From positions 1-42,343 of IMG/VR virus record IMGVR_UViG_3300030090_005761: DNA of 42,343 nucleotides; one strand, given 5' to 3'. This stretch comes from a virus. Each line of letters starts with the position of its first letter. Position 1 is the first letter of the stretch. This document shows, piece after piece, positions 3,895 through 42,343 of the stretch. Below the pieces are notes generated by a model. The model had not been told where the DNA came from, made no database searches, and was given only the letters and a program-made list of their open reading frames with translations. The translations under genes were made by a program, and so were the position numbers.

Positions 3895-4919
3895 TGGCGC
3901 GCTTCGACCTGTCCATGCTCTCCAAGCTGGCTACCCAGCTTATCGCCCGTCCTGAGCTGCACGAGGTCTTTGAGGCGGCAGACTCCAAGAGCTATGAGCA
4001 GATCCGCAGCCTTGCCCTATCGCCTTTCTTCCTGTGGTCCCCTTTTGGTCTGATTAATGACAAGGCCTATGGGGGCTATAGGGGTCAGGATGCTTGTCAG
4101 GCCGGGGCCCTCTTGGATGAGAGCAACAACAAGTGGTTTATCGCCGGTAACCGTGGCGGCAAGACCATCGCCGGGTTGATGGAGGATGTGGCCGACTGTC
4201 TGGGCTTGGATGTGGTCACTAAGCAGCGGTCCAAGCGCTTCGAGGGACCGGTCTATATGTGGGTCGTCTCCGACACGGAAGAGACCAGCGTCAACGTCTG
4301 TGAGCGCACCCTTGTAGAGCAGGTGCTGGGCGAGGATGAATCGGGCTTCTTGTGGAACTTCGTGGATGACGCCTCCCGCTATAGCGCCCGCAGCGGCTGG
4401 GCCGACCACCGCCTGCTCTTTACCAATGGCTCATGGATCCACTTCAAGTTCTCCACGCAGAAGCGCAACACCTTTCAGGGGGTGCGGCTGCACAAGGTGC
4501 ATCACGATGAGGTGCAGCCCCGCGAGATCTATGGCGAGTGCATGGCTCGTTTAGCCGACTATCACGGCCGCTTTCTGGGCACGATGACCCCCATCTTCGA
4601 TGAGAAGCGCGGTGGTATTCCGTGGATCTATGAGGAGCTCTTCCTGCAACAGCAGGCTAAGGGCATCACCTTCCACCGCTGGTCTATGCTCGACAACCCC
4701 CATATCCCTGAAGATGCCAAGCAGCGGCTGATGCAGCAGTGGGACGAGGACGAGATCGAAGCGCGTGTGCATGGTATGTTCGTGCCTATGGGCGTGAAAT
4801 TGGCTTTCTCTTCTAAGCTCTTGCGCCACCTCCGCTCGATGTCGGTCAAGCCCTCTTTGCGTGGCACCCTGCTTATGGACGATGAGGGTGAGGTCACCTG
4901 TGAGATGCAGGCGGCATGA
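3894..4919 (+). CDS. terL: Large terminase, ATPase half (split TerL)
   Basis: 341 aa. The ATPase motor that pumps DNA into the prohead. Walker A GNRGGKT at residues 85-91, Walker B ending HHDE (D205/E206), coupling motif GTMTP at 229-233. A normal TerL continues into an RNase-H-like nuclease; here the frame ends at 4919 and the nuclease is a separate gene whose ATG overlaps this stop as ATGA. Joined, the two give about 585 aa, a normal TerL length. The last ~25 residues (after about 316) look like linker. Confidence 0.9.
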   Translation: MARFDLSMLSKLATQLIARPELHEVFEAADSKSYEQIRSLALSPFFLWSPFGLINDKAYGGYRGQDACQAGALLDESNNKWFIAGNRGGKTIAGLMEDVADCLGLDVVTKQRSKRFEGPVYMWVVSDTEETSVNVCERTLVEQVLGEDESGFLWNFVDDASRYSARSGWADHRLLFTNGSWIHFKFSTQKRNTFQGVRLHKVHHDEVQPREIYGECMARLADYHGRFLGTMTPIFDEKRGGIPWIYEELFLQQQAKGITFHRWSMLDNPHIPEDAKQRLMQQWDEDEIEARVHGMFVPMGVKLAFSSKLLRHLRSMSVKPSLRGTLLMDDEGEVTCEMQAA

Positions 4920-29859: not shown

Positions 29860-29892
29860 TGAATTTGTAAGTAGTTGTTAAATAAGGTTGGT

Positions 29893-29944
29893 TGTCCGGC
29901 CTCTCACGCCGGTAACACGGGTTCGAATCCCGTACGGGCTACCA
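29893..29944 (+). other. attP: attP core: 3' half of tRNA-Glu(CTC)
   Basis: CCGGC-CTCTCAC-GCCGG anticodon arm (anticodon CTC at 29903-29905), ACGGG-TTCGAAT-CCCGT T-arm (29917-29933), acceptor 3' strand ACGGGCT, discriminator A and encoded CCA (29942-29944). No 5' partner (AGCCCGT) or proper D-arm lies upstream, so this is a fragment, not a gene. Lying 190 bp before an integrase gene, it is the attP core: integration would cross over in a host tRNA-Glu gene and restore its 3' end. The 5' limit of the identity with attB is uncertain. Confidence 0.85.
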
Positions 29945-30134: not shown

Positions 30135-31448
30135 ATGCCGTCAGTATATCAGAGAGGTTCTGACAAGCTGTGGGTTCTAAAATTCCATTTGCAAAAGAAA
30201 GAACGCTACCTCTACCACGAACATAAAGAGGTAATTGACAACCTTGACCAGCTGTGCATAGTGATGCTGGTCAAGGTGAGACACGGCAATAGCTGGCGTA
30301 ATGCCGAAGATGATATTGCCGACTGGATAGACAAGGGACTGCTCACCCGCGAGGAGGCTTGTAGCATATGGGACTGGTATGCCGACACCCTTGAGCGTAA
30401 GCATTCTTTTGTAGGCATAGACTGGGACGCGATACGCCAGGCCTACGAGGATCGCATCCTTGCCGAGGAGAACCTCTCTGATTCAAGCAGTAAGACCCAC
30501 AAGTGCCATATGTCTACTGCCGACCAGGTGCTGCGCTGGCTCAAGGCCAACCACCCTACGCTGGTGACGCTGACATCGCAGGATGTGCGCGACTGGTGGA
30601 ATGACCTCCGCAAGCAATATGCCGACTCCACCGTCAACAAGAAGCTCACCAAGATGCGGCACCTGCTGCGAGCTGCTGTAGAGCTTAAGATGATCGTAGA
30701 GAACCCTGCCCTCGCCACTGACATCACCGCCAAGGATGCGCAGCAGCGCGTAGTCATCAAGCCAGAGCGTCAGACCAAGGAATACCGCGACCTACACCCA
30801 GAAGAGTGCGAGATCATCATAGAGCGGCTGGAAGAGAAGTGGGATCTCTACACACAGCCACATGCCGGTGAGAATCGTAAGCGCCCCATGCACGGCTGCC
30901 TGCCTATCGCCATCTTCTGCGGCCTCTATGCTGGCCTGCGTAATGGCGAGATGCTGTGGCTGTCGTGGCCGGTGCTACGTCTCAAGCGCAGTCCGATGGT
31001 GCGAATACAGGAGGTGGTATGTCAGAAGACGGGCCGTCGCTGGGTGCCCAAGGACTTCGAGAAGCGGGAGGTGGGCATCAACGCCAAGCTGATGCCTCGC
31101 CTCAAGGCTGAGTATGAACGACAGGAGGCGCTGGGCATCCTGGGGCAGTTCATCATCCCCTCTGGTAGTTTCACCAAGCCCCACCTGCGCGGCACGGCCG
31201 CCACCGAGATCAGTCTCATCCGCAGCATCAATGAGTTCTTCTATAATGAATCTGACATGGGGCTCGATGCGCCCCAGCCCACCTACTATTCCTTTAGACA
31301 TACCTTCGCCACGCAGCTGCTTCAGAACGGCGCAGACCCACGCACCGTGCAAATGCGCATGGGTCATGCCAATCTCAAGACTACGGAGAAGTATCTGCGG
31401 TGGATCGATCCGAAGGAGAAGGTGGTTGAGGACGCTCTCCCGTACTAG
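30135..31448 (+). CDS. int: Tyrosine recombinase integrase
   Basis: 437 aa. N-terminal arm-binding part (about 1-110), SAM-like core-binding part (about 115-195), catalytic domain from about 210: R269 in YAGLRNGE, R388 in [11 protein letters not shown]411 in MGHANL and nucleophile Y420 in TTEKYLR. The first box-II position is Tyr385 where many family members have His, a common variant. Performs site-specific integration at the adjacent attP. AGGAGG lies just before the ATG. Confidence 0.92.
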
Positions 31449-31470
31449 CCTTGTAACGACAATCTGAATA

Positions 31471-31505
31471 AAGGGGGAGTATCGCCAATAATACTCCCCC
31501 TTTTT
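31471..31505. terminator. Bidirectional terminator between int and the leftward module
   Basis: Perfect 10-bp stem GGGGGAGTAT/ATACTCCCCC with 8-nt loop, A-run on one side and T-run on the other. It can stop transcription from int (+) and from the leftward operon (-). Confidence 0.88.
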
Positions 31506-31506
31506 C

Positions 31507-31656
31507 TCAATTGTCATTACACTCAGCTATGATATTTGCCATATCCCGTTTCACTAAAATGCCATACTGTGCCCACGCTTCATTTATAAAATTCTTTTCT
31601 CGCAAGTGATCCCAAATCTTCTGCGCTATCTGCTCTGCAGTATCTTGTTTACTCAT
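31507..31656 (-). CDS. Small protein, last gene of the leftward operon
   Basis: 49 aa (MSKQDTAEQIAQKI start). Helical, charged. Its ATG overlaps the stop of the xis-like gene as ATGA, so it is translated by coupling; it ends right at the terminator. No family recognised. Confidence 0.6.
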   Translation of the reverse strand: MSKQDTAEQIAQKIWDHLREKNFINEAWAQYGILVKRDMANIIAECNDN

Positions 31657-31859: not shown

Positions 31860-32164
31860 GATGCTTCCTCCGCAGCCGAATCAAAGACGACGGTCTCCTT
31901 CATCGGTGCATCCAGATGTGCATCCAGATCTACGAGGGTTTGCAGCAGCTCTTTCAGTTGCTCCCCATCTAGGTGCATGATCTGGCAGTAATCTCTATTT
32001 CCATCCAACCCACGTTCTTTTAAAGCCTCGGCATATCCATCTATATAATTAAGGGCTGCACTAACGGTGCAAATATGGTTTTCATGCTCAAACTCTTTGA
32101 TCTTGAAGCCTTCCCAAAGCTGGCCTTGAGTTACAACGTAGATGCTGTCGTTTTTGATCATCAT
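31856..32164 (-). CDS. Unknown phage protein
   Basis: 102 aa, mixed alpha/beta, acidic, ending in AAEEAS. Translationally coupled on both sides (ATGA). Start at ATG 32164 or one codon later at 32161. No family recognised. Confidence 0.6.
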   Translation of the reverse strand: MMIKNDSIYVVTQGQLWEGFKIKEFEHENHICTVSAALNYIDGYAEALKERGLDGNRDYCQIMHLDGEQLKELLQTLVDLDAHLDAPMKETVVFDSAAEEAS

Positions 32165-35207: not shown

Positions 35208-35451
35208 TATGAGCTGCTCCTATAATTCTGTAGGTGAGTAAGGAAAGTAGCGTCGAAAGGATGGAGGCCGTCAGCACGGTGACTCCACTGGCGCCAAAGA
35301 GCATGGACAGCGCCCAGGTGAAGCCTATGCTGACGCCTATGTTGCCGACCACCGAGCTGGAGGCGAGATGGCGCAGAGGCTTGAGCTTCGCCCCCGCAGC
35401 CATCTCCAGTATCCAGCTGGCTATACCCAATAGCACAGCCGTGAGTAGCAT
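35143..35451 (-). CDS. Small membrane protein, two to three spans
   Basis: 102 aa. Hydrophobic segments at about 2-17, 33-50 and 55-75, then a strongly basic tail (RRGRIRRRTT). Starts on the TAATG junction with the DUF932-like gene. Topology would place the basic tail inside. Possible superinfection-exclusion or holin-like role, by analogy only. Confidence 0.6.
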   Translation of the reverse strand: MLLTAVLLGIASWILEMAAGAKLKPLRHLASSSVVGNIGVSIGFTWALSMLFGASGVTVLTASILSTLLSLLTYRIIGAAHSAKSYKLTRRGRIRRRTTIPS

Positions 35452-36386
35452 TATTCCCCAAGGATCTCTTGGATCGCTTCAGCTACCTGGGTGCGATTCT
35501 CCTGCACCGTGTAGTCCAGTGCCGATGACGCGAACTGATGCAAGCTCGCGTGCTTGGGCAGCTGGTCCTGCGGCTTGAGGGATTTGAAGTCGAAGGTGAA
35601 GCTGTTATACCAGCTCCACAGGGTGCGGTTGCCTCCCTCGTATTCGTGCAGCGGCTCCTCCCAGTACTTCTGCACCGACTTCCACTCCTTATCGGTTGTC
35701 AGGATGCGACGGGCTGACGACTTATCCTTGCCAGTGTGGGCGCGAAGCATACCCATAAGAGCGTAGCCATCGTCTTCGGTCAGCTCCTTGCCGACCATAT
35801 TGTCCCTCGAGGCTCGCATATCATCCCATGTGTCCGATGCCCGGTGCATCTTGAGGATGATCTGATCGTTGAGATACTCGGTGACGTTGCCCGTATGCCG
35901 GTGGTGGATGGTGACCTCACCGTTGATAGCGGTGTTGTCGCAGTTGAAGACGCGAGCGCCCAAGGCCAGCGCACAGCGCATCGACTTGTCGTAGCTGTTG
36001 CGCCCGGCCAAGGCCAGCGCCATCTCTGTGTCACCGTTGCGGTAGCTGTGGACGAAGAACATCCGCGCTCCCTCGTGGCTGGTGACATACCGCTGCCCAT
36101 CCAACTGAAACCCCTTGGGGGCCATGATGCTGTCAGCGTGCTTGTAGAGCGACTCGACAAAGTCGACGTGCCCTACCGGCGTGTAGCTGTCCGTCTTCTC
36201 CGGCAGCGGGATCTGCCCCAGGTCGTCGTAGGCACACTCGACACCGCCAGCATGGGACATCATAACGCTGTTGCCGATGTCTTTGCCAGCGACCTTGAGG
36301 CGACCCTGGCTGTCGGTGGGAATGACAATCTCGTCGCCCAGCTCGGGCTCATATATCGTCTGAGGTTCTGCAATGGCTTCCGTCAT
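35451..36386 (-). CDS. DUF932-like phage/plasmid protein
   Basis: 311 aa. Recognisable order: SHEGARMFFVHSYRNGD (about 103-119), then GRNSYDKSMRCALALGARVFNCDN-like segment around residues 128-150, and IHHRHTGNV. This suits DUF932 proteins common on phages and plasmids, whose molecular role is unsettled; DNA metabolism is suspected. GGAGGATCAC precedes the ATG. Confidence 0.65.
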   Translation of the reverse strand: MTEAIAEPQTIYEPELGDEIVIPTDSQGRLKVAGKDIGNSVMMSHAGGVECAYDDLGQIPLPEKTDSYTPVGHVDFVESLYKHADSIMAPKGFQLDGQRYVTSHEGARMFFVHSYRNGDTEMALALAGRNSYDKSMRCALALGARVFNCDNTAINGEVTIHHRHTGNVTEYLNDQIILKMHRASDTWDDMRASRDNMVGKELTEDDGYALMGMLRAHTGKDKSSARRILTTDKEWKSVQKYWEEPLHEYEGGNRTLWSWYNSFTFDFKSLKPQDQLPKHASLHQFASSALDYTVQENRTQVAEAIQEILGE

Positions 36387-37500: not shown

Positions 37501-37902
37501 CTATACGGGGGCAAACTCGTCCTCAACCTCGAACTCCTGGGTGTTGAACGAGGTGTCCTGCTGCCTGCTGCTCCCGCTTTCACTCTTGGGCGTCAACAGG
37601 TTGAACTCGTTGGCAATCACCTCGCTGGTGTAGCGTTTCTGGCCGCTCTGGTCTTCCCACTGGCGGGTAGTCATGCGGCCGATGACGTTGCACATGTCGC
37701 CCTTCTTCAGGTACTGGGCCGCTACCTCGGCCTGTTTCTGGAAGAGGACCACGTTGTGCCAGTCGGTCTGTTCCTGGCGCTCCTCGCCGCTACCCCGGAA
37801 GTGCTTCGTAGCAACACGAAGGTTGCATACGGCTTTGCCGCTGGTGGTGTATTTCAACTCCGGATCTACCCCACAGCGTCCGTTCAACATGGCGATGTTC
37901 AT
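37501..37902 (-). CDS. ssb: Single-stranded DNA-binding protein
   Basis: 133 aa. OB-fold SSB: MNIAMLNGRCGVDPELKYT start, CNLRVAT, WHNVVLFQKQAEVAAQYLKKG, GRMTTRQWED; then a Ser/Gln linker and an acidic tail (FEVEDEFAPV) lacking the terminal Ile-Pro-Phe of bacterial SSB. Protects single-stranded DNA and probably serves the Sak4-like ATPase. Starts on ATGA overlap with the zinc-finger gene. The longer frame up to 38148 is an artefact. Confidence 0.9.
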   Translation of the reverse strand: MNIAMLNGRCGVDPELKYTTSGKAVCNLRVATKHFRGSGEERQEQTDWHNVVLFQKQAEVAAQYLKKGDMCNVIGRMTTRQWEDQSGQKRYTSEVIANEFNLLTPKSESGSSRQQDTSFNTQEFEVEDEFAPV

Positions 37903-38078
37903 GACTTTTTCCCTTTCTTGAGGGTTATGATGGCGCCCTTGCGCGCCTTGGTGGCACAGGATGTGCACAGGTTTCCATTGATGGGCATGTTTATGAGTCG
38001 CTGGCAGCCTTTGGCTTTGCACATGCGCTCGTATACAGGCCCTTTCGCGTCCGATGTCTCTATTCGCAGCACTGCCAT
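37899..38078 (-). CDS. Small zinc-finger-like protein
   Basis: 59 aa. Cys20-x4-Cys25 and Cys38-x2-Cys41 suggest a zinc finger; ends in a Lys-rich tail (LKKGKKS). ATGA overlap with ssb. Its start lies inside the end of the winged-helix gene. Likely nucleic-acid binding; no family. Confidence 0.6.
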   Translation of the reverse strand: MAVLRIETSDAKGPVYERMCKAKGCQRLINMPINGNLCTSCATKARKGAIITLKKGKKS

Positions 38079-38431
38079 ACGATAGCTCTCTTGCCGCTCG
38101 TCTTGTTACGCCGTTTCTCCCCACTGTCTGTGATGAGGTTGCGGGCACGCAGCTCGCTGAAGCGTGGCTGGATGGTTGGCACGGTCAGGCCCAGCGTTTC
38201 GGCCGCCTCATGCACGGTGGAGGGATACTCCTGCAGTAGCCGCAGCACCTTGCCGCGCAGGGCCGGGACCCGATCCGCGATGTCGGCAGCGGCCTCGATG
38301 CTGGTGAGGTCGGGTGTAGCGGCAGGCCCCGCAGGATACGAGGGTTCAGCGACCTCCGATGTCAGACGGAACGTCGAAGGCGGGCTTGGGCGAGTCGAAG
38401 CGTAGGGGTTTTCGTGAACGGTCTTTGGCAT
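38060..38431 (-). CDS. Winged-helix DNA-binding protein
   Basis: 123 aa. N-terminal 45 residues disordered; then a winged HTH (about 57-118) with LRGKVLRLLQEYPSTVHEAA, IQPRFSELRARNLI and DSGEKRRNKTSGKRAI, the pattern of MarR-like phage regulators. AAGGAG precedes the ATG. Probably controls the operon or replication. Confidence 0.7.
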   Translation of the reverse strand: MPKTVHENPYASTRPSPPSTFRLTSEVAEPSYPAGPAATPDLTSIEAAADIADRVPALRGKVLRLLQEYPSTVHEAAETLGLTVPTIQPRFSELRARNLITDSGEKRRNKTSGKRAIVWQCCE

Positions 38432-38525
38432 GGTGCATCTCCTTCAAGGTTTGGTTGATGGCAAATAGGGCGTGGCTAATCATGTGTAGCGTTTCAAGCA
38501 GCTTTTTCTCCTCGCTTGTCTTCAT
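38346..38525 (-). CDS. Small helical protein overlapping the winged-helix gene
   Basis: 59 aa (MKTSEEKKLLETLHMISH start). AAGGAG sits 7 bases before the ATG at 38525. Its last ~28 codons share 86 bp out of frame with the winged-helix gene, an unusually long overlap. Both have good ribosome binding sites. One may be dispensable. Confidence 0.5.
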   Translation of the reverse strand: MKTSEEKKLLETLHMISHALFAINQTLKEMHHAKDRSRKPLRFDSPKPAFDVPSDIGGR

Positions 38526-38790
38526 GCTCTTTCTCCTTGCGCTTGGCCCAGTAGGCCCTGCGTTCGCGTTGCTGTTCTGCGCGTTGCTCGGCTGCGATGG
38601 CGGCCTTGCTCGGTGGTCTCAGCACGAGATTGCTACCCCAATCGTGATCCCCACTGGGTAGACGCAGGTTGATGGTGATCGTGTGGCCAGCGGCCAGCTC
38701 CTCGATGATGTATTGCTCGTTCAGGTTGAGGCCAAAGCGTTCTAGTGAGGCGAGGACCTCGCTCGGTTTCTTGACTTCGATGACAGGCAT
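38494..38790 (-). CDS. Unknown small protein
   Basis: 98 aa. N-terminal compact part (PSEVLASLERFGLNLNEQYI) and a very charged helical tail (QQRERRAYWAKRKEKEHED). Weak ribosome binding site. Overlaps the next gene by 32 bp. Function unknown. Confidence 0.6.
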   Translation of the reverse strand: MPVIEVKKPSEVLASLERFGLNLNEQYIIEELAAGHTITINLRLPSGDHDWGSNLVLRPPSKAAIAAEQRAEQQRERRAYWAKRKEKEHEDKRGEKAA

Positions 38791-39058
38791 ACGAATCCCT
38801 TTCGCGCATACGAGTGCTCCTGGCGGTCGGCGTCCGTTGGGGGCGGGGAGCGCTCGGTGTCCCCCCTGGCTTTATGTTTGGGGTGTGGTGCTGTTCGGGG
38901 TGGTGCGGGGTTTCTTTGGGGTGGCGCCGGCCGCAGGCGCGAAGCGGGTTGGCCACGGGAAAGCGGTCGGCGTGGTGGAGCGACGCTCGTTGGTGAGCGC
39001 CGCTCCCGCACGCCAGGCGTCAGGCTTTCGCCTCGGAAACGCCTGGGTTTGAGTGTGC
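38791..39058 (-). ncRNA. Hairpin-rich stretch downstream of the tRNA-like gene
   Basis: No gene with a ribosome binding site. On the minus strand: a stem CCAGGCGT/ACGCCTGG enclosing AGGC-GAAA-GCCT (39013-39046); a 12-pair stem GGAGCGGCGCTC/GAGCGTCGCTCC (38977-39006) whose one mismatch is G-U only in minus-strand RNA; and GCGCC/GGCGC (38924-38940). This suggests a structured RNA continuing from the tRNA-like element. Confidence 0.5.
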
Positions 39059-39153
39059 TACCTTGGGTGGGATTCGAACCCACATTCAGCCTTTCAACAG
39101 ATTTGCATGCAATCTGCATCCCCGGCTTTGTCTTTCCATTAGACGACCAAGGT
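39059..39153 (-). tRNA. tRNA-like gene with extended anticodon arm (identity unclear; Cys GCA possible)
   Basis: 95 nt. Acceptor ACCTTGG/CCAAGGT (7 perfect pairs), D-arm GTCT/AGAC, T-arm GTGGG-TTCGAAT-CCCAC and discriminator A are all canonical; CCA is not encoded (GCA follows). The anticodon region is abnormal: AGCC/GGCT, an internal loop, then a 7-pair stem GCAGATT/AATCTGT with loop GCATGCA. It lacks T33 in that fold; read with a larger loop, GCA (Cys) is possible and TGCA appears duplicated. Could be a defective or intron-like tRNA, or a true tRNA mimic. It starts 15 bp after the 52-aa gene. Confidence 0.7.
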
Positions 39154-39167
39154 TTTAATGGCACCCC

Positions 39168-39326
39168 TTATGCCGTGGCCTCCTTCGTGCTCTGGAAGAA
39201 GCGGTCGAGGAGTTTATAGCGGGCGAAGAGCATCCCTCCGGTGATGGCAATGGTGAGCCAGCCGGGTAGCAGGGCGGCACAAAGGGCGATGTGCATGGCA
39301 GAAGCGAGGTAAATGAGCGTTTTCAT
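39168..39326 (-). CDS. Micro-membrane protein 4 (52 aa)
   Basis: MKTLIYLASAMHIALCAALL then a second hydrophobic stretch (WLTIAITGGMLFA) and a charged tail: two spans in 52 residues. ATG overlaps the previous stop (ATGA). Last of four tandem micro-membrane genes, just before the tRNA-like gene. No family. Confidence 0.6.
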   Translation of the reverse strand: MKTLIYLASAMHIALCAALLPGWLTIAITGGMLFARYKLLDRFFQSTKEATA

Positions 39327-39418
39327 TTGGAGTCTCCACTGAGGTTTTCGATGGTGCGTTGGAATGCTTTCGGTCGGGTAACTGCATAGGCAATGACTAA
39401 CAGCAGGATTAGCTCCAT
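39323..39418 (-). CDS. Micro-membrane protein 3 (31 aa)
   Basis: MELILLLVIAYAVTRPK: one short hydrophobic segment then a polar tail. GGAGGAG lies upstream within the previous gene. ATGA-coupled to the 52-aa gene. Confidence 0.55.
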   Translation of the reverse strand: MELILLLVIAYAVTRPKAFQRTIENLSGDSK

Positions 39419-39534
39419 TTGTGGCGACTCCTCCGCCATTTGTGGCGGCGTTCGAGGTAGCGACTCAGGTAGTAGCTGGCAATGATGGCGATGTATGGGC
39501 TGGCTTCTAAGAGCGCTTCTATCCAGCCGTTCAT
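39409..39534 (-). CDS. Micro-membrane protein 2 (41 aa)
   Basis: MNGWIEALLEASPYIAIIAS, then a strongly basic tail (RHKWRRSRHKWS). A possible single span with positive inside end. Starts on ATGA overlap. Confidence 0.55.
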   Translation of the reverse strand: MNGWIEALLEASPYIAIIASYYLSRYLERRHKWRRSRHKWS

Positions 39535-39623
39535 TCGGTGTCCCCCCTGGCGGTGTCGAGGAGGCAGAGGATTAAGATGATGATGCCTATGGCGGCGATG
39601 TGACTGCCTTCGTCGTTGTGCAT
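39531..39623 (-). CDS. Micro-membrane protein 1 (30 aa)
   Basis: MHNDEGSHIAAIGIIILILC plus a short polar tail: a single span. Its ATG overlaps the stop of the 302-301-aa range upstream gene (39623). First of the four-gene string. Confidence 0.55.
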   Translation of the reverse strand: MHNDEGSHIAAIGIIILILCLLDTARGDTE

Positions 39624-40528
39624 TAGGCGTCCTCCTCCTCGTATTGTCCGCGGCACTGAGCTATGGAGCTTTCGATCCGGCTGACGTTGGCGTCGTGTGT
39701 TTCCTCGGCGGTAGTCCACGGATTGGTGAGGTCTGCTACTGAGTTGGTCCATTCCTCATCGTCAAAGTTGTCGGATGAAACAACCGTATCGTCTGCCGGG
39801 AAGTCGTCGTTCTCCCAGTCTGTGGCTTTCTCTGTGGCTTCGAGGATAGTGACGTTGGGCGCGGCTTCCTGGACGATGAGTTCAGCACCCCACTCGGTGA
39901 AGGCTCGCACTTGAATTTCGAAGTAGCTACCAGCAACCCACTTGTCGATGTAGCCGGTGACGTTGTAGGTCTTCTGTATCTTGTCGCCGTGCCGGTAAGG
40001 GGCTGTAGTGATCTTAGCCAGTTGCTCTGCGTTGTCGGCTTGGTCTATGACTTCGATGATGTGGTCTTCGTTGCGCGGTGGGTTCTTCGTGAAGATTCCG
40101 AACTGTCCACTCTTCGGGTCTTTGGCGATGATGCAACGCTCGGCGAAGCCTTTGGTGAGGAGGTAGTGCGCGTGCTTGCGGGCAATGTTGAGACTGGAGC
40201 GGATGTGCAGGCCCAGCTTCACCCATTTGGCGCGTTGCTCTTCGGTGATAGGAGCACTGTCGGGTTCGAGGATGCCACGTTTGATGAAGGACTTCTTGTC
40301 TGCCCAGAAGATTTCCCATGCGTGCTTGCGTGCCTCGCCGGACAGTTTCTTGGCAGTGCCACTGAGCTTGCGTAAGACTTTAAGAGCCTGTGACTTGTAG
40401 TCCTTGCGGATGTCCTCCTCGGTTGCCCGGGCCTCGTCGCGGTAGTGCTTGTCTGCGCGGCGGTCGTCGCAGGTGCCATCGAAGGCGTCGGCAAAGCTCT
40501 TGATGCGATTAATGCTTATATTCTGCAT
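39623..40528 (-). CDS. Unknown protein, possible early DNA-metabolism factor
   Basis: 301 aa from ATG 40528, preceded by AGGATGAG; the ATG at 40537 is less likely. N-terminal half helical and basic (KVLRKLSGTAKKLSGEARKH), middle part with KWVAGSYFEIQVRAF strands, C-terminal 70 residues very acidic. Similar layouts occur in phage-encoded unknown proteins in early regions. No catalytic motif identified. Confidence 0.6.
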   Translation of the reverse strand: MQNISINRIKSFADAFDGTCDDRRADKHYRDEARATEEDIRKDYKSQALKVLRKLSGTAKKLSGEARKHAWEIFWADKKSFIKRGILEPDSAPITEEQRAKWVKLGLHIRSSLNIARKHAHYLLTKGFAERCIIAKDPKSGQFGIFTKNPPRNEDHIIEVIDQADNAEQLAKITTAPYRHGDKIQKTYNVTGYIDKWVAGSYFEIQVRAFTEWGAELIVQEAAPNVTILEATEKATDWENDDFPADDTVVSSDNFDDEEWTNSVADLTNPWTTAEETHDANVSRIESSIAQCRGQYEEEDA

Positions 40529-40611: not shown

Positions 40612-41076
40612 CTACTTGTGAGTTGGATCGAAGCTGTATTTGTGCGTGATGCCAAGATGTTCGCAACGGACGGCTGTAAGTAGATTGCCAAGCCAGTTTT
40701 GCCAGTTTGCGCCGTGGCATTTTTCTGTGTTGCATGTGCATACACCCCAGAAGTTATCGTGCCACGTATTCTCTTCGATGAGCTTCTCTTCTCCTTCGTC
40801 TGATACAGCAAGGAGGCGATCTCGCAGGACGGGATTGGCAAACTTCAACTGGAGGGCTTTATACATCACGTAGATGCGCTTGTCGTTCCAGTTGGGTATG
40901 CACTTGACGCGTCTGCCCATGCGTTTGGCTTGCCCCGGAGTGCAATGCTTGAATGATTCACGGTCGTTTATGTCTGAGCATTTAGCCGCTTGGTAGGCAT
41001 TCTCCACTGTGGGATAATCCTTGACGGTGGCTGGATAGAAGTTGCTCAGGAAGTCGTATTGTCCTCTGAAGTGCAT
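40612..41076 (-). CDS. NADAR domain protein (YbiA-like)
   Basis: 154 aa, nearly all NADAR: FLSNFYP (9-15), YPTVENAYQAAKC with E25, MYKALQLKF (71-79), LIEENTWHDNFWG (99-111), NWLGNLL near 127. NADAR enzymes remove ADP-ribose or related N-glycosides; some reverse ADP-ribosylation of guanine in DNA and act as antitoxins to DarT-type toxins. In a phage this suggests anti-defence. GGAGGATGAGAC precedes the ATG. More AT-rich than its neighbours. Confidence 0.85.
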   Translation of the reverse strand: MHFRGQYDFLSNFYPATVKDYPTVENAYQAAKCSDINDRESFKHCTPGQAKRMGRRVKCIPNWNDKRIYVMYKALQLKFANPVLRDRLLAVSDEGEEKLIEENTWHDNFWGVCTCNTEKCHGANWQNWLGNLLTAVRCEHLGITHKYSFDPTHK

Positions 41077-41529: not shown

Positions 41530-41829
41530 CTACTGTGTGACCAACTCAACTAACTCCTCAATCGTGCGATAACCGTTTGCCACCAAGGCAAGCACCTCAG
41601 CGTGGCACCGCTGCGGTCGGCAATGGCACAAGAGCCTCTCGCCACGCAAGTCCTCAATCCGATTCATCAAGTCCTCGTTAGTGGCCAAGTAGCGCACGTA
41701 GGTCTTGATAACCTCGGAGCGGCTCCCATCTCGCCCGATGATAAATGGGTTGCCCCAAGGCGTATGCCTATCAACACGCACACCGCGCTCACCCACGCGA
41801 CCCACGTAGTTGCTGATCCTCGCGTCCAT
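41530..41829 (-). CDS. DUF4326 family protein
   Basis: 99 aa. RVDRHTPWGNPFIIG (18-32), SEVIKTYVRYL, LRGERLLCHCRPQRCHAEVL (61-80; C68, C70, C75, H76), the hallmark of DUF4326. Widespread in phages; activity unknown. It is the first gene of the early leftward operon, with GAGGAGGATAC before the ATG. Confidence 0.85.
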   Translation of the reverse strand: MDARISNYVGRVGERGVRVDRHTPWGNPFIIGRDGSRSEVIKTYVRYLATNEDLMNRIEDLRGERLLCHCRPQRCHAEVLALVANGYRTIEELVELVTQ

Positions 41830-41937: not shown

Positions 41938-42343
41938 GGTGGGGGTTGTTCAGAAACACACCGCTTTATTATCTGATAGGTCTGTGTTTGTGAAGAACGA
42001 TGGGACGGGTCGGGTCCGCTTTACTGATCGGCGGGGCTGGTCGCTACCGTCGGCTGAGAACGCAATGACAGCGGCCAGCGGTGGGCAGGCCGAAATCGGA
42101 CTGCAGGGGGATGGGAACCGGCGAGTTATATTTCCCGCGACTAGAGAGAGAGATAGGACGACGCCGGGCGTTGCTGTCTGAACGCCCAAGGAGTCCGTGA
42201 TGCTCGGAAGGTTGGTAGAAGGCGTAGCACGGAGGCGAAGGCCGCAGGAGTGAACAGACGTAGCGACGCACAGCGCCACGGCTATTGCACGTGACCCCGT
42301 AGAAGGTGAGGTCGTGGCGCGGTCGCCGTCTGTGAACGTGGAC
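41938..42343. other. Right part of the gene-poor junction region
   Basis: No gene with a ribosome binding site; open frames on both strands have no protein-like composition. Contains a perfect hairpin GGGCGTT/AACGCCC (about 42167-42187) and a GAGA repeat (about 42142-42151). The final 100 bases repeat positions 1-100. With 1-445 it forms one continuous region on the circle. Confidence 0.5.

Follow-up and report, generated by a model that had tools for sequence, protein, structure and literature searches.

A 95-nt tRNA-like RNA is encoded among the minus-strand genes of a temperate phage, and combines an intact acceptor, D and T body with an anticodon arm far longer than that of an ordinary tRNA. 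At a probability of about 0.5, we read this locus as a tRNA gene that gained about 25 nt in its anticodon arm, yielding a recently broken, non-decoding derivative whose only remaining activity would be as a processing site in the transcript. The window analyzed here is the whole 42,343-nt stretch of record IMGVR_UViG_3300030090_005761, and Table 1 collects the features discussed.

Table 1 Positions of the tRNA-like RNA, its parts and surrounding features in the window
Feature	Position	Strand	Basis
tRNA-like RNA, 95 nt (acceptor, D-arm, extended anticodon arm, T-arm, discriminator A)	39059..39153	-	Rfam, fold, tertiary-contact bases
Extended anticodon arm	39088..39127	-	MFE, base-pair probabilities
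Outer 4-bp helix of the long arm	39124-39127/39088-39091	-	probability 0.98
Inner 7-bp helix of the long arm	39111-39117/39097-39103	-	probability 0.97
Terminal loop GCAUGCA, self-complementary GCAUGC, no U33	39104..39110	-	sequence, arm scan
52-aa hydrophobic ORF immediately upstream	39168..39326	-	stop codon 14 nt before the tRNA-like RNA
Nested hairpin CCAGGCGU...ACGCCUGG, inner AGGC-GAAA-GCCU	39013..39046	-	fold of 38791-39154
12-bp hairpin GGAGCGGCGCUC/GAGCGUCGCUCC, loop ACCAAC	38977..39006	-	fold; region equally stable on + strand; no T run
C/A-rich unstructured stretch preceding gene 38494-38790	38791..38910	-	folding ranks
3' half of a tRNA-Glu(CTC) gene (attP)	29886..29941	+	Rfam, ARAGORN; adjoins integrase

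A tRNA body with an extended anticodon arm

Comparison of the window with Rfam returned a match to RF00005 over the full 95 nt (41.5 bits, E=1.4e-5 for the whole window). This score exceeds the family's gathering score of 29 bits and, together with the recognizable acceptor, D and T arms, places the RNA among structural tRNAs; judged by its family score, there is little doubt that it is a tRNA derivative. ARAGORN missed the gene at default settings and reported the same 95 nt when run with its intron option. Inspection of the individual stems reveals seven acceptor pairs (ACCUUGG/CCAAGGU), four D-stem pairs (GUCU/AGAC) and five T-stem pairs (GUGGG/CCCAC), all free of mismatches, with predicted helix probabilities of 0.98, 0.94 and 1.00, respectively. 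The bases used for tertiary contacts are likewise present (U8, A14, A15 with U48, G18G19 and A21), and the T loop reads UUCGAAU. A 99-nt piece containing the RNA folds with a minimum free energy of -33.4 kcal/mol (z=-2.98), a value equaled by 1 of 200 shuffles. Directly after the RNA, positions 39056-39058 (-) hold GCA in place of CCA.

The anticodon region spans 40 nt, versus 17 in the Rfam model. Its two helices, each predicted with near certainty, are separated by an internal loop of 6/5 nt (GGGGAU/UGAAA). An initial annotation made from the letters alone had described canonical acceptor, D- and T-arms joined to a long anticodon helix of 4+7 pairs with the loop GCATGCA, and this architecture is borne out in every part. 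When every 5-bp/7-nt arm that could form between the D and T stems was examined, a single perfect one emerged, the hairpin with loop GCAUGCA, in which position 33 is C rather than U. Arms that do bear U33 reach at most three of five pairs anywhere in the full RNA. That is to say, the 5-bp anticodon stem and 7-nt loop with U33 that characterize a decoding tRNA are absent from the 95-nt RNA. Because U33 is missing and the loop sits at a much greater distance from the elbow than that of a tRNA, the RNA cannot be expected to read codons and is probably non-decoding.

Stability of the long arm alone is only modestly above chance, with 151 of 5000 shuffles (~3%) as stable. The arm derives from a quasi-palindrome in the DNA, GCAGATTGCATGCAAATCTGT, for which the genome contains no convincing second copy; one match with three mismatches lies at 31915. 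The palindrome was also considered as a repressor operator, a role rejected given this lack of a convincing second copy.

Genomic setting and relatives

The window begins and ends with identical 98-bp direct repeats (1-98 and 42244-42341) and therefore represents a complete genome of ~42.2 kb, that of a temperate phage. A tyrosine integrase gene (30135-31448) adjoins the attP site. ARAGORN's call of tRNA-Glu(CTC) at 29867-29941 (+) corresponds to no more than the 3' half of such a gene, and attP is shared with tRNA-Glu genes over at least 48 nt. Exact copies of this 48-nt core are found in Latescibacterota, among them MAGs labelled Gemmatimonadetes, as well as in Acidobacteriota, where most belong to Thermoanaerobaculia. 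Long relatives of the integrase (35-40% identity, E down to 1e-60) are found in several Latescibacterota, where two of three checked integrase loci carry a tRNA gene, whereas matches in Thermoanaerobaculia are short and weak. This difference makes a member of Latescibacterota, a poorly known bacterium, the likeliest host, as far as sequence comparison can indicate. Searches with capsid and portal detected no close prophage in genomes of the host phylum. Between the integrase gene and the convergent minus-strand genes lies a 31-nt inverted repeat with A/T-run flanks (31452-31521), which is the most stable fold in the window for its composition and is probably a bidirectional terminator.

The tRNA-like gene is located on the coding strand of a block of minus-strand, early-type genes. 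Upstream of it, the ORFs in 39168-39752 (-) are very small and for the most part hydrophobic, and their stop and start codons overlap (ATGA). The same block encodes a single-strand DNA-binding protein, a Sak4-like ATPase, and a NADAR-domain protein and a DUF4326 protein at 40612-41076 (-) and 41530-41829 (-). NADARs reverse nucleic-acid ADP-ribosylation (PMC11125620, PMC11543638), and the latter two proteins are possible counter-defence genes acting on ADP-ribosylated nucleic acids. A 140-aa ORF running through the RNA (38742-39164) was rejected as a gene, its peptide being what a translated tRNA and GC-rich spacer give.

Downstream, 268 nt separate the tRNA-like RNA from gene 38494-38790, a distance occupied by two hairpins and an unstructured leader. 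The initial annotation had proposed a GAAA-capped nested stem and a 12-pair stem with a strand-specific G-U pair, and both fold as described; the single G-U pair of GGAGCGGCGCUC/GAGCGUCGCUCC would be A-C on the other strand. Its larger proposal, a single structured RNA of ~350 nt, is not supported. On the minus strand, the best 120-nt segments containing both hairpins are placed about 45th among 4224, and the same 120-nt stretch is at least as stable on the plus strand (-63.5 kcal/mol) as on the minus strand (-59.3 kcal/mol). Minus-strand segments starting at 38781-38881 rank 4164-4219 of 4224 (4197-4219 for starts at 38801-38881), so that the 3' third is almost unstructured and among the least structured parts of the genome. 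With an unstructured 3' part and a hairpin region that folds at least as stably on the plus strand, there is therefore no single 350-nt structured unit. The tRNA-like RNA alone is treated here as the candidate unit, and the remainder as a spacer. Thus, of the earlier interpretation, the tRNA-derived RNA with an extended non-canonical anticodon arm stands and the 350-nt RNA does not. The hairpins were also rejected as terminators, as neither is accompanied by a T run. An exact 17-bp direct repeat, TCGGTGTCCCCCCTGGC, is present at 38854-38870 and 39535-39551; one copy is the ribosome-binding stretch of ORF 39409-39534 and the other lies in the spacer.

The search for relatives of the locus used DNA comparisons with phages and plasmids; viral contigs were queried with gapped patterns shaped like a tRNA, with an exact pattern for the 3' end, and with the neighboring proteins 37501-38148, 38494-38790 and 35451-36386. 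A homologue of the 95-nt RNA emerged from none of the phage, plasmid, viral-contig or host-phylum searches, an absence that is only moderately informative given that the patterns are narrow (fixed D- and T-arm words). The RNA therefore has no support from covariation or conservation. Matches to the spacing pattern were limited to an intron-bearing tRNA-Ala of a Halogranum virus and one phage tRNA-Asn with a long variable region; recovery of the former indicates that the pattern is able to find inserts of this size. The latter (L033:1581-1665) is an 85-nt tRNA-Asn(GTT) whose variable region is unusually long for its isotype.

Capsid relatives were found at 23 loci in viral contigs, where structural genes are shared and the early region is poorly conserved. 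Only one, G021, has recognizable neighbors at the tRNA-like locus, on its downstream side. The initial annotation had raised the prospect of an ordinary tRNA at the same place in relatives; in G021, the one relative readable at this place, the corresponding stretch holds no tRNA of any kind. A second relative, G003, carries an ordinary 74-nt tRNA-His (69.7 bits) elsewhere among its minus-strand genes. Taken together, G021 and G003 indicate that tRNAs come and go in these phages. In a third, G019, ARAGORN reports tRNA-His at the position corresponding to attP.

Origin of the RNA and competing readings

To account for the locus as an expanded, broken tRNA gene, we propose that the anticodon arm of an ordinary tRNA grew into a hairpin of two parts, the probable cause being a duplication or insertion that formed a palindrome. 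In the operon transcript, RNase P would then cut at the 5' end of the RNA and tRNA 3' nucleases at the 3' end. These enzymes recognize the acceptor/T half of their substrates, and because that half is intact here, excision would still be expected. The processed product would not decode and would presumably lack further function. Several observations fit such an origin. The stems and tertiary-contact bases are perfect, and ARAGORN recovers an ordinary class-I cloverleaf once 25 contiguous nt are set aside; the full RNA allows no arm with U33. The long arm is built from a quasi-palindrome and exceeds shuffles only modestly, no homologue emerged from the searches, and the pattern in G021 and G003 is one of tRNA turnover. 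The gene also lies 14 nt past a stop codon, on the coding strand.

Other observations are less easily reconciled with a broken gene. A decaying gene soon loses its pairing, yet the stems are without mismatch and the long arm is fully paired, such that either a very recent event or selection is needed. Among the possible cuts, chance alone would be expected to provide about one 25-nt cut that leaves a good loop. The implied parent, a serine tRNA with anticodon UGA and no long variable arm, is also an odd tRNA. Should the gene indeed be a broken tRNA, it would add one minor case to the turnover of tRNAs seen in phage genomes.

Selection is the core of a tentative alternative, which we consider possible but less likely, in which the RNA is a tRNA mimic: a stable, RNase P-processed scaffold presenting a long hairpin with a GCAUGC loop, serving as a regulator or as a decoy for defences that target tRNAs or for tRNA enzymes, and perhaps dimerizing through a kissing loop. 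The initial annotation had offered decoy and regulator as possible roles, along with a repaired target of anticodon nucleases. Every feature of the tRNA elbow is intact, and both long-arm helices are predicted at 0.97-0.98. Other phage tRNAs evade tRNA-cutting defences (PMC10264068, PMC11555353), and, as a weak argument, the gene block also encodes the NADAR-domain and DUF4326 proteins. However, the RNA is known from one instance, with no covariation, and arm stability reaches only the ~3% level against shuffles. In its more specific form, which seems rather improbable, the phage would display the hairpin and its self-complementary loop on a natural tRNA scaffold, as a decoy or regulator during infection. 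Expression and conservation, if established, would make the RNA a natural counterpart of the laboratory tRNA scaffold and show that phages make stable non-decoding RNAs via the tRNA processing pathway. No description of such a phage RNA was found in the open-licence literature, and since default ARAGORN overlooks this gene, others may be hidden.

The parentage of the RNA allows a further, distinctly doubtful explanation, in which it is a chimera or remnant of a class-II tRNA, with a 3' third from tRNA-Ser or tRNA-Leu and a middle from another source. BLAST matches the 3' part to tRNA-Ser of Thermoanaerobaculia and Vibrio phages, and the acceptor 3' strand and T-arm are identical to those of a phage tRNA-Leu. 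These matches, however, span only ~30 nt, their E-values are borderline, and many tRNAs have similar T-arms. In a class-II tRNA, an anticodon arm of the usual kind precedes a long variable arm that is separate from it; no valid anticodon arm with U33 exists here, and the class-II reading that ARAGORN produces at a relaxed threshold has mismatched stems. The distal hairpin does look like a Cys anticodon arm in which TGCA has been duplicated, but none of the 64 Latescibacterota genomes searched contains the 15-mer CAGATTGCAAATCTG of that arm, and the host was accordingly rejected as its source.

Least probable by far is that a 25-nt intron interrupts a tRNA-Ser(UGA) at position 31/32 and is spliced out, a reading for which ARAGORN's intron mode removes GGGATGCAGATTGCATGCAAATCTG to leave a 70-nt class-I tRNA with loop GUUGAAA and anticodon UGA. 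Splicing is unlikely because the host is bacterial (exact attB matches occur in bacteria), the 6/5 internal loop is not a bulge-helix-bulge, and no splicing or ligase gene was recognized among the phage proteins profiled, many of which had no match. A bulge-helix-bulge has two opposite 3-nt bulges around a 4-bp helix and an archaeal-type host, neither of which is found here, and a group I intron would not fit into so small an insert. Given SerRS, a serine tRNA lacking the long variable arm would be unusual, and phage codon use (TCA 6.7 per thousand) gives no hint of a need for Ser(UGA). A suitable cut is also expected by chance: by our own estimate, with eight ways to split the 7-nt loop, U33 and purine 37 would arise together about once.

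Comparison with known systems

Phage-encoded tRNA genes of family RF00005 share with the 95-nt RNA the acceptor, D and T arms, the tertiary bases and a position among phage genes. Here, in contrast, the arm is too long, U33 is missing and the 3' end does not carry CCA. The tRNA-Ala of Halogranum tailed virus 1, also a viral tRNA, likewise contains a short insert in the region from the D arm to the T arm; it has an archaeal host and a readable canonical anticodon stem-loop, whereas the present RNA has a bacterial host and no bulge-helix-bulge. In tRNA-dependent lysogeny (PMC10865867), a temperate phage similarly combines a tRNA-located attachment site with a second tRNA-like gene. The present phage departs from that system on two counts: its attP regenerates at least 48 nt at the 3' end of tRNA-Glu, and a Glu anticodon is missing from the second gene.

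A changed anticodon region is also a feature of phage tRNAs that escape anticodon nucleases (PMC10264068, PMC11555353), and these may, by analogy, offer the nearest functional idea for the 95-nt RNA. They differ in that their alterations are point changes and they still decode, whereas this RNA has no decoding loop. The closest likeness in form is to the engineered tRNA scaffold (PMC3753655), in which the acceptor, T- and D-arms are kept and the anticodon stem-loop is turned into a longer hairpin. That scaffold was made by man from a known tRNA, while the RNA predicted here is natural, and the resemblance, viewed as an analogy, is one of design and not of descent.
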